Below, one piece after another: positions 61,209 through 64,000 of a stretch of DNA of 64,000 bases (the first letter of the stretch is position 1; each line of letters opens with the position of its first letter). A program made the position numbers and the translations under genes. Under the pieces are notes generated by a model, which saw only the letters and a program-made list of their open reading frames with translations, was not told where the DNA came from and ran no database searches. Origin of the DNA: Deltaproteobacteria bacterium (lineage in GTDB: Bacteria; Desulfobacterota; Desulfobulbia; Desulfobulbales; Desulfurivibrionaceae); assembly GCA_021802645.1 (NCBI GenBank), contig JAJZRO010000001.1, forward strand, positions 1 through 64,000. Direction: 5' to 3'.

Positions 61209-61922
61209 ATGGAAACCCGCCTGCAACTCCCGATGCTCCCCCAGCCGGACGACACCACCTGCGGCCCTACCTGTCTGCACGCGGTCTACAACTACTACGA
61301 CGACCCCATCGCCCTCCGGAAGGTGATCAATGAGGTGAGCAACCTCGAAGGCGGCGGCACCCTCGAGGTGCTGCTCGCCTGCCATGCCCTCAAACGCGGC
61401 TACAAGGTGACCACCTACACCTACAATCTGAACATCTTCGACCCCACCTGGTTCGACGATCAGGTGATCGATCTGGCGGAGAAACTCGAACTCCAGTTGG
61501 CGGCCAAGAAAAAACCGAAACTGGCGGTGGCCACCAAGGCGTACCTCGAATATTTGCGGCTTGGCGGCGTGATCCGCTTCCAGGACCTCAACGCCGCCCT
61601 GATCCGCAAGTACCTCAAGCAGGGCAAGCCGATCCTCTGCGGCCTTTCCGCCACCTACCTTTACCACTGCGCCCGCGAATACGGCCCCAACCTCGACTAC
61701 GACGATGTCCGCGGGGTACCAAGCGGCCACTTCGTGGTGCTCTGCGGCTACGACATGGAACACCGCCATGTGCTGGTGGCCGATCCGCTGCACCAGAATC
61801 CGCTCCAGGCCGGCCATTACTACGAGGTATCCACCCACCGGCTGATCGGCGCCATCCTGCTCGGCATCATCACCTACGACGGCAACCTGCTCATCATCGA
61901 ACCCAAGAAACCCAGCCACTGA
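61209..61922 (+). CDS. Peptidase C39-like protein
   Basis: 237 residues, papain-like C39-type fold. The oxyanion Gln and catalytic Cys are in PQPDDTTCGPTC (Gln12, Cys18), the His is in PSGHFVVLCGYD (His174), and the Asp in VADPLHQNP (Asp192), so the triad is complete. No ABC domain is attached, and no signal peptide is visible, so it acts in the cytoplasm. It is the first gene of a cluster with a RimK-like ATP-grasp and a GCS2-type ligase. It may process or hydrolyse the amide product or a precursor peptide. Confidence 0.85.
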   Translation: METRLQLPMLPQPDDTTCGPTCLHAVYNYYDDPIALRKVINEVSNLEGGGTLEVLLACHALKRGYKVTTYTYNLNIFDPTWFDDQVIDLAEKLELQLAAKKKPKLAVATKAYLEYLRLGGVIRFQDLNAALIRKYLKQGKPILCGLSATYLYHCAREYGPNLDYDDVRGVPSGHFVVLCGYDMEHRHVLVADPLHQNPLQAGHYYEVSTHRLIGAILLGIITYDGNLLIIEPKKPSH

Positions 61923-61930
61923 CATTCCGG

Positions 61931-63403
61931 ATGCCCACCACCCTCATCGTTGTCGACAACCCCAAAAGCTGGCCCCTGGAACTCGAAGGGGTGGAGATCG
62001 TGCCGGCCCGGCAGTACCTCACCGACCCGGTCTACACCAATCTCAAACACACCAAGGTCTTCAACCTCTGCCGTTCGTACCGCTACCAAGCGGAGGGCTA
62101 CTACGTCTCGCTGCTGGCCGAGGCGCGCGGCCACAAGCCGATTCCGCGGCTCTCCACCATCCAGGACATGAAGCTACAGACCATCGTCCGCTTCGTCTCC
62201 GACGACCTCGACGAGCTGATCCAGAAGAGCCTCGGCACCATCCAGTCCGACCGCTTCACCCTGAGCATCTACTTCGGCCGCAACATGGCCAAGCGTTACG
62301 ACCGGCTCGCCTCCCAGCTCTTCCGCACCTTCCACGCGCCGCTCCTGCGCGCCCAGTTCGTCTTCCAGAAGAAATGGCATCTGCAATCGATCCAGCCCAT
62401 TGCCGGCAACGAGATTCCGGACCACCACCACCCCTTTGTCATCCAGGTGGCCAACGAGTTCTTCACCCGCCGCGAACCGCAGCCCAAGCGGATCAATGCC
62501 CGCTACGACATCGCCATCCTGGTGAACCCGGAGGAAAAGGCGCCGCCCTCCAACGAACGGGCCTTGAAAAAATTCGTCAAGGCCGCCAACCATCTGCAAT
62601 TGAGCGCCGAGCTCATCGCCAAGGACGACTTCTCCCGGCTCGCCGAGTTCGACGCCCTCTTCATCCGCGAGACCACCAGCGTCAACCACTACACCTACCG
62701 CTTCGCCCGCAAGGCGGCGGCCGAGGGCCTGGTGGTGATCGACGACCCGGAGTCGATTTTGAAATGCACCAACAAGGTCTTCCTGGCGGAGCTCTTGCAG
62801 CGCAACCACATCGCCTGCCCCAAGACCATGATCGCCCACAAGGAGAATCTGGAGGTCGTGCTCCACGAACTGGGGCTGCCTATCATCCTCAAGAAACCGG
62901 ACAGCTCCTTCTCCCAAGGGGTGCTCAAGGCGAGCACCCTGGAGGAACTCGTGGAGTATAGCCACCAACTGCTCGACGACTCGGAACTCATCATTGCCCA
63001 GCAGTTCCTGCCCACGGACTACGACTGGCGGGTGGGGATACTCGACAACGAGCCGCTCTTTGTCTGCAAGTACTTCATGGCCAAGAACCACTGGCAGATC
63101 ATCGAACACCATGCGGACGGCACCAAGGCGGAGGGCGACGCCATCACCCTGCCGGTCAGCGAGGCGCCGGAGCGGGTGGTGAAGACCGCCCTCAAGGCAG
63201 CCAACCTCATCGGCAACGGCCTCTACGGCGTGGACCTCAAGGAGGTAGACCGCCACATCTACGTGATCGAGGTCAACGACAACCCCAACATCGACGCCGG
63301 GGGCGAGGATGCGGTGCTCAAGGACGAACTCTACCGCCGGATCATGCAATCCTTCCTGAACCGCATCGAACAGCGCACCCACCCCACCCCATGCCGGAAA
63401 TGA
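61931..63403 (+). CDS. RimK-like ATP-grasp ligase with N-terminal RimK-associated domain
   Basis: 490 residues. Residues 1-190 are a predicted RimK-associated N-terminal domain (TLIVVDNPKSW, ARGHKPIPRLSTIQDMKLQT). An ATP-grasp ligase follows (about 290-480): KCTNKVFLAELLQRNHIACP, LPIILKKPDSSFSQGV, and the metal-binding terminus IEVNDNPNIDAGGED. Such enzymes form carboxylate-amine bonds, for example adding glutamate. It starts 8 bases after the C39-like gene and overlaps the next ligase gene by 13 bases, so the three are an operon. Substrate unknown. Confidence 0.92.
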   Translation: MPTTLIVVDNPKSWPLELEGVEIVPARQYLTDPVYTNLKHTKVFNLCRSYRYQAEGYYVSLLAEARGHKPIPRLSTIQDMKLQTIVRFVSDDLDELIQKSLGTIQSDRFTLSIYFGRNMAKRYDRLASQLFRTFHAPLLRAQFVFQKKWHLQSIQPIAGNEIPDHHHPFVIQVANEFFTRREPQPKRINARYDIAILVNPEEKAPPSNERALKKFVKAANHLQLSAELIAKDDFSRLAEFDALFIRETTSVNHYTYRFARKAAAEGLVVIDDPESILKCTNKVFLAELLQRNHIACPKTMIAHKENLEVVLHELGLPIILKKPDSSFSQGVLKASTLEELVEYSHQLLDDSELIIAQQFLPTDYDWRVGILDNEPLFVCKYFMAKNHWQIIEHHADGTKAEGDAITLPVSEAPERVVKTALKAANLIGNGLYGVDLKEVDRHIYVIEVNDNPNIDAGGEDAVLKDELYRRIMQSFLNRIEQRTHPTPCRK

Positions 63404-64000
63404 AACCGCTCCACCTCTTCGATGCCATTGGCGTCGAACTCGAATACATGATCGTCGATGGCACCAGCCTCGATGTCAAGCCGATCAGCGACCAGCTCCT
63501 GCAGGCCGCAGCCGGCGAACTCACCAGCCATTACGACAAGCCAGGGATTTCCTGGTCCAACGAGCTGGTGCTCCACGTGATCGAACTGAAAACCACCGAG
63601 CCGGCCACCGATCTCGCCGCCATGGTGGCGCCCTTCCACGCGGATGTACAGCGGATCAACACCCTGCTCGCTGCCCACGATGCCCGCCTGATGCCCGGCG
63701 GCGCCCACCCGTGGATGGACCCCTTTAAAGAAATGCACCTCTGGCCCCACGGCGACCGGGAGATCTACGCCGCCTTCAACCGCATCTTCGACTGCCGGGG
63801 CCACGGTTGGGCCAACCTCCAGAGCTGCCACCTCAATCTCCCCTTCCAGGGCGATGAGGAATTCGGCCGGCTGCACGCGGCGATCCGCCTCATCCTGCCG
63901 CTGCTGCCGGCCCTGGCGGCCAGCACCCCCATTGTCGATGGCCAGGTGCAATCGTCGCTTGATTTTCGCCTGGAGACCTACAAGACCAACTCCGCCAAGC
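63391..64000 (+). CDS. GCS2-type carboxylate-amine ligase (glutamate-cysteine-ligase-like), 3' end outside window
   Basis: First ~203 residues of a GCS2/YbdK-like ligase. It opens LFDAIGVELEYMIVDG, where Glu residues bind metal and ATP, then ISWSNELVLHVIELKTTEP and GGAHPWMDPFKE. GHGWANLQSCHLNLPF has the His typical of the fold. It starts within the last codons of the ATP-grasp gene. With C39-like and ATP-grasp partners it points to a peptide- or amide-forming pathway. A second ATG at 63400 is possible. Confidence 0.9.
   Translation, partial: MPEMKPLHLFDAIGVELEYMIVDGTSLDVKPISDQLLQAAAGELTSHYDKPGISWSNELVLHVIELKTTEPATDLAAMVAPFHADVQRINTLLAAHDARLMPGGAHPWMDPFKEMHLWPHGDREIYAAFNRIFDCRGHGWANLQSCHLNLPFQGDEEFGRLHAAIRLILPLLPALAASTPIVDGQVQSSLDFRLETYKTNSAK

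Follow-up and report, generated by a model that had tools for sequence, protein, structure and literature searches.

ATP-grasp enzymes of the RimK type couple an amino acid to an acyl phosphate, and the substrates of RimK relatives also include proteins (ribosomal S6) and carrier proteins (LysW). GCS2 enzymes, via an acyl phosphate, link glutamate or a similar acid through its gamma-carboxyl to an amine. As for hydrolysis, C39-like papain folds cleave amides, primitive phytochelatin synthase cleaves glutathione and enzymes of the FGase family cleave N-acyl amino acids; in glutathionylspermidine synthetase/amidase an ATP-dependent ligase is joined to a papain-fold amidase. The 2009 survey of Iyer et al. 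reportedly lists RLAN-type ligases and ligase-peptidase neighbourhoods in which ATP-grasp, GCS2-like and GNAT ligases occur with peptidases, and neighbourhoods related to the one described here were probably among them. The general idea is thus probably not new, the enzyme families being known and related neighbourhoods having probably been surveyed at that time.

A 2023 survey of papain-like enzymes covers the amidase family of glutathionylspermidine synthetase/amidase, mentions that DUF3335 occurs fused to GNAT and refers to the amidoligase survey of 2009 (PMC10318531). Ngg makes NAGG by carrying out both glutamine acetylation and peptide-bond formation in one enzyme, and NAGGN operons carry a peptidase (PMC8070244); furthermore, GCS2 is presumed to be ancestral to the Pup ligase (PMC2588565). 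No experimental study, product or phenotype of the gene set described below was found in the open full-text literature searched.

The operon and its three enzymes

The window analysed here comprises the first 64,000 nucleotides (forward strand) of contig JAJZRO010000001.1 from a member of the Desulfurivibrionaceae (GCA_021802645.1), a 353,633-base contig of a 2.55-Mb genome that is 99.4% complete. Three plus-strand genes stand at the end of the window, with a divergent MarC gene (Pfam) upstream: a soluble C39-like (papain-fold) cysteine peptidase/amidase of 237 aa (61209..61922; PF13529, E 1.2e-11), an RLAN plus RimK-type ATP-grasp ligase of 490 aa (61931..63403; Pfam RLAN 1e-50, RimK 1e-10) and the 5' part of a GCS2-family carboxylate-amine ligase (63391..64000; Pfam GCS2 7.8e-19 on the part in the window). 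The first two are separated by 8 bases (61923-61930) and the last two overlap by 13 (63391-63403), so that the tight coupling described in the initial annotation of this stretch, with its coordinates, proved exact. The gene that it saw running off the window ends at 64629, and the complete GCS2 gene (63391-64629 of the contig; 3391-4629 in locus L002) encodes 412 aa. Extension past position 64,000, from which further genes such as amidohydrolases or precursor peptides had been hoped for, supplied this end and no additional operon gene; the operon in the source genome therefore consists of three genes.

The next genes are a ccdAB-like toxin-antitoxin pair (by reading) on the minus strand at about 64635-65530 of the contig (4635-4937 and a gene ending at 4938 in locus L002). 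The pair starts 6 bases past the GCS2 stop, at the place where relatives have an FGase gene, and a ccdB match is absent from the other fetched loci, including the FGase-less L131 (G001) and L030. Upstream in the window, a stand-alone homologue of bacteriophage Mu GemA (57921-58301, plus strand; PF06252, E 2e-13) was observed with no evident prophage in the adjoining ORFs.

All three proteins are probably cytosolic, because hydropathy revealed neither a signal peptide nor a clear membrane span in any of them. None of the three reached the cut-off of a curated NCBIfam model, and the catalytic residues, reported as intact from the outset, are present and invariant in all three families. In the peptidase these are Cys18 (codon at 61260-61262), His174, Asp192 and the oxyanion Gln12, invariant in 66 relatives. 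Its AF2 model (pLDDT 92.5) was matched by Foldseek to PeiR (pseudomurein endoisopeptidase), C39 double-Gly proteases and the primitive phytochelatin synthase Alr0975, the nearest match being an isopeptidase. A role as a C39 bacteriocin-leader peptidase was not borne out, since the protein has no transporter domain (Pfam) and no transporter is conserved in the neighbourhood.

The ligase consists of an N-terminal RLAN domain (62006..62443; PF14401, match 1-148) and a RimK-like ATP-grasp domain (62771..63295; PF08443, residues 281-455). The former carries the core motif FNLCRSYRYQxxGYYVSLLAEARGHKP, with N45, Y50, Y52, Q53, G56, Y58, V59, L61, L62, A63, A65, R66, H68 and P72 invariant; in the latter, Lys321, Glu447 and Asn449 are intact and invariant in the ligase family, and Glu447 and Asn449 align to LysX. 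Foldseek searches with the AF2 model (pLDDT 88.8) returned ArgX, RimK and LysX, with E values from 1e-15 to 1e-14 and alignments limited to roughly the last 300 residues. All matches were to ATP-grasp enzymes in this part and the RLAN fold had no recognisable solved relative, hence the type of acceptor cannot be read from the structure. The ligase reached neither the RimK family cut-off (TIGR00768; 70.7 of 143.4 bits) nor that for ribosomal S6 glutamate ligase (NF007764; 26.2 of 331 bits). A phage origin was also considered and rejected, the only match in Yersinia phages covering 185 residues at 30% identity.

The GCS2 protein retains Gly-x-Glu-x-Glu (E16, E18) and Glu263/Arg265, and the GxExE motif and metal/ATP residues are invariant in 51 relatives. 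It resembles characterised gamma-glutamyl ligases weakly (no NCBIfam score exceeds 63 bits, where the cut-offs are 176 or more), and for that reason glutamate is an assumed substrate. A profile search of solved structures likewise gave weak matches (E 0.005-0.05), too weak for substrate residues to be transferred.

Conservation, the fourth gene and GNAT-type relatives

GTDB genome contigs were scanned with the ligase, yielding at least 564 relatives, of which the best 80 were fetched and named; the sample is hence biased to close relatives. These best 80 loci alone span at least ten phyla, with hosts, by title, in the Desulfobacterota/deltaproteobacteria, Gammaproteobacteria, Bacteroidota (including Balneolaceae), Verrucomicrobiota, Planctomycetota, Chlamydiae, Hydrogenedentota, Krumholzibacteria, Neomarinimicrobiota, Nitrospinota and Tectomicrobia. 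Among the same best 80 of at least 564, a C39 gene stands beside the ligase in 77 loci and a GCS2 gene in 73, some of the exceptions lying at contig ends, and the gene order is nearly always C39-ligase-GCS2 with overlaps or short gaps. Their ligases are 55-76% identical to that of the window. Recurrence of this trio in different phyla, at protein identities of about 50-60%, places the association far beyond chance. Records labelled 'plasmid' for the Pseudomonas and Legionella matches look like chromosomal pieces by gene content, and a plasmid location was rejected.

Co-inheritance was equally strict at closer range. Among 58 genomes of relatives, exactly the same 27 contain the RLAN family and match the C39 profile, and GCS2 orthologues (E below 1e-100) are found in those 27 as well; GCS2 contig-edge fragments alone are present in two further genomes. 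The initial annotation had named a lack of co-conservation as a reason to abandon its proposal, and the opposite was observed. In an even draw of 394 genomes from the phylum, 20 contain the RLAN family.

A fourth gene is usually present. Directly after GCS2 and on the same strand, 49 of the 64 named loci with enough sequence carry a gene of the N-formylglutamate-amidohydrolase family (FGase, PF05013) with conserved core motifs CEHGG, HSF and ELEVNQ, and clustering of all neighbours identified it as the only further gene shared between phyla. Within the 58 relatives FGase adjoins the operon in 7 genomes, and no intact copy was found in those that are RLAN-negative (one, G039, has a broken fragment). 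The arrangement varies, for example ligase-GCS2-FGase-C39 in the Chlamydiia and ligase-GCS2-FGase in the Legionella record. FGase is absent from the whole source genome, from its genus mate G001 and from the available stretch of the near relative L030. The usual operon comprises four genes, and the source genome holds a reduced three-gene form from which FGase was lost.

Pairwise protein distances of the four genes correlate across 45 loci (Mantel r = 0.76-0.92, a figure in which shared ancestry is still included), and none of 999 permutations reached the observed value. The bacterial family of the window is scattered over the ligase tree, with L021 placed inside an otherwise gammaproteobacterial MAG group; as members of this family sit in separate parts of the tree, we infer that the set has repeatedly been transferred horizontally as a unit.

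Within 1.5 kb of the operon, small ORFs that might encode a precursor peptide or tag are conserved at most among closely related genera. A graspetide/RiPP cluster was rejected, as there is no conserved precursor gene beside the ligase. With neither another cross-phylum gene nor a conserved small precursor gene, the cluster is one of ligases and hydrolases only. In ten Pontibacter-group loci (L063, L075-L077, L079, L082, L092, L098, L107 and L109), the four-gene operon lies directly downstream of arginine-synthesis-like genes on its own strand (by reading, argD, argF-like, argB, argE-like and argH); this adjacency is restricted to the Pontibacter group and was rejected as a general clue.

More distant RLAN ligases (32-46% identical) are found without GCS2. 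A GNAT acyltransferase gene lies directly upstream of the RLAN ligase in Azospirillum and Tistrella; the Azospirillum GNAT is fused to a C39-like DUF3335 domain (Pfam) and the Tistrella gene matches the Azospirillum protein over 90% of its length. In three Desulfobacterota the GNAT gene follows the ligase, in a fourth (L125) GNAT is fused to the N-terminus of the RLAN-ATP-grasp ligase (649 aa). A GNAT-C39 fusion stands at L112. DUF3335 aligns with the C39 family of the window, the Cys, His and Asp motifs being kept (hhalign E 1.3e-5). The ligase tree places the GCS2-associated sequences in a single group, separate from the GNAT type (support 0.84, with limited sampling). Because GNAT replaces GCS2 beside or fused to distant RLAN ligases, the recurring core appears to be a capping enzyme plus an RLAN ligase, often with a papain-fold hydrolase.

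Two RLAN genes, those of Pseudomonas aeruginosa and Aeromonas, have no such partner beside them. The lone P. aeruginosa ligase (L110:4902-6491; 44% identical to that of the window) lies between SDR and aminotransferase genes, and no GCS2, C39 or GNAT gene was seen near it. Elsewhere, GNAT-type RLAN pairs (L123:7076-10501 and L124:1-3379) adjoin homocitrate synthase (nifV)-, NifA-like regulator- and nitrogenase nifD-like genes (by reading). In L122 the RLAN ligase stands between a citrate synthase gene, directly upstream, and a GNAT gene, the end of which is overlapped by a SET-domain protein (PF00856; L122:7077-7673).

A putative metabolite pathway and its alternatives

The gene content and its conservation point, with somewhat better than even confidence, to a self-contained cytosolic pathway that makes and unmakes a small N-capped peptide-like metabolite. 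In a plausible scheme leading to such a product, GCS2 would use ATP to activate glutamate, or an acid like it, at the gamma-carboxyl and join it to an amine, giving a compound of the gamma-glutamyl-X type. The RLAN/RimK-type ligase would then activate a carboxyl of this product, or of an acceptor of its own, as an acyl phosphate and add a further amino acid, most likely a glutamate-like one, with the RLAN domain presumably binding the acceptor. C39 would hydrolyse or transfer one amide bond, much like phytochelatin synthase and the amidase portion of glutathionylspermidine synthetase/amidase acting on derivatives of glutathione, and in most relatives the FGase-family zinc amidohydrolase could provide a second hydrolytic step, lost in the source genome, on an N-acyl-glutamate-type bond.

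This retains the core of the initial annotation, in which two ligases build a product that is then trimmed or recycled by a papain-like enzyme of the cytosol; with co-conservation strict and glutathione synthetase and type-I GshA undetected, that remains the best-supported reading. The gamma-glutamyl chain it envisaged was too specific, since GNAT replaces GCS2 elsewhere; both forms are accommodated by an amino acid that is N-capped and then lengthened by the ligase. Its three-gene picture was also incomplete, the usual FGase fourth gene and the GNAT-partnered RLAN ligases having been missed.

A broader proposal can be put forward tentatively, as a possibility short of an expectation: that a single metabolite cycle, new to biochemistry, operates in at least ten phyla, where a GCS2 or GNAT cap and the RLAN ligase would build a storable on-demand pool of an osmolyte, thiol or signal, to be dismantled by two hydrolases that are unrelated to each other and encoded in the operon. 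A module of three or four enzymes that stays intact in at least ten phyla and appears horizontally mobile must do something complete and useful alone. Furthermore, the exchange of GCS2 for GNAT is a concrete chemical clue, suggesting that the RLAN ligase lengthens a capped amino acid and thereby pointing to testable candidate molecules, and a module that is small, soluble and without transporters or precursor genes should be expressible and directly assayable.

The ligases could instead act on proteins, the RLAN ligase adding glutamate or a gamma-glutamyl peptide made by GCS2 to a C-terminus or side chain and C39 (with FGase) removing it. RimK and LysX/ArgX, the nearest solved relatives of the ligase, do act on proteins, the Pup ligase presumably descends from GCS2 (PMC2588565), tag removal is a frequent role of papain-fold enzymes and the nearest structural match of C39 is an isopeptidase; an acceptor protein could also exist without a linked gene. 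However, the neighbourhood holds no conserved gene for a target or tag, a module that crosses phyla as a closed set would need a universal target, and FGase-family enzymes are generally known for small N-acyl amino acids. Protein modification is on this evidence unlikely.

A compatible solute or stress-protective blocked dipeptide resembling NAGGN would be a specific form of the preferred metabolite pathway, and the probability that we give it, which is low, is included in that of the pathway as a whole. GCS2 would replace the acetyltransferase cap and the hydrolases would recover the amino acids after stress. The GNAT domains fused to or beside RLAN ligases mirror Ngg, a peptidase is likewise found in NAGGN operons (PMC8070244) and several host lineages come from saline or soda-lake settings, judging by their titles. 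Many hosts are nevertheless from fresh water or soil, and no osmotic regulator is linked. The GNAT-type proteins of L125 and L112 score 24 and 35 bits on the NAGGN synthetase model (TIGR03103) against a cut-off of 569, and membership of the NAGGN pathway itself was rejected.

It is highly doubtful that the set provides removable amino-group protection for amino-acid biosynthesis, in the manner of LysW/LysX/ArgX or of N-acetyl groups in arginine and lysine synthesis, with GCS2 or GNAT capping and C39 or FGase uncapping. ArgX and LysX are among the best structural matches of the ligase, the operon follows arginine-synthesis genes in the ten Pontibacter-group loci and FGase relatives are generally known to strip N-acyl groups from amino acids, but a single lineage accounts for the arginine neighbourhood and neither a LysW-like carrier nor a biosynthetic enzyme is conserved in the cluster.

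Glutathione or a plain substitute, with GCS2 making gamma-glutamylcysteine and the ATP-grasp enzyme adding glycine, is very improbable: plant-type GshA is related to GCS2 and GshB belongs to the ATP-grasp enzymes, the C39 fold is similar to that of phytochelatin synthase, which cleaves glutathione, and the source genome would have room for a substitute, but neither ligase nears the glutathione-family cut-offs, and glutathione synthesis offers no place for the RLAN domain or the GNAT alternative. Ordinary glutathione-type synthesis, the other outcome that the initial annotation set against itself, is unlikely, because neither GshB (PF02955) nor type-I GshA (PF04262) was detected in the source genome.

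Comparison with known systems

Among single enzymes, the ligase of the window shares fold and catalytic residues with RimK, LysX and ArgX in its C-terminal 300 or so residues; it differs in its extra N-terminal RLAN domain, its other gene partners and a score far under the RimK-family cut-off. Its GCS2 partner likewise resembles YbdK, EgtA and plant-type GshA in having a full-length GCS2 domain, the GxExE motif and the metal/ATP residues, but falls under the cut-off of every characterised subfamily and is partnered by RLAN and C39.

Glutathionylspermidine synthetase/amidase and phytochelatin synthase provide a parallel for a papain-fold amidase acting on gamma-glutamyl peptides, the C39 of the window being structurally like Alr0975. 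The amidase of the former is of the CHAP family, whereas that of the window is C39, and no known glutathione-making enzyme was detected in the source genome. The Ngg/NAGGN system shares the combination of a capping enzyme, a peptide-forming ligase and a hydrolase, and the GNAT-RLAN-ATP-grasp fusion of L125 resembles the layout of Ngg; the module has no AsnO, however, and the window version has GCS2 in place of GNAT, with a ligase that lacks a GNAT domain. The predicted amidoligase clusters are matched in two features: two unrelated ATP-dependent amide ligases (RLAN/RimK and GCS2) share one operon, and a peptidase or amidohydrolase is linked to them (C39 in 77 of the best 80 loci, FGase in 49 of 64).
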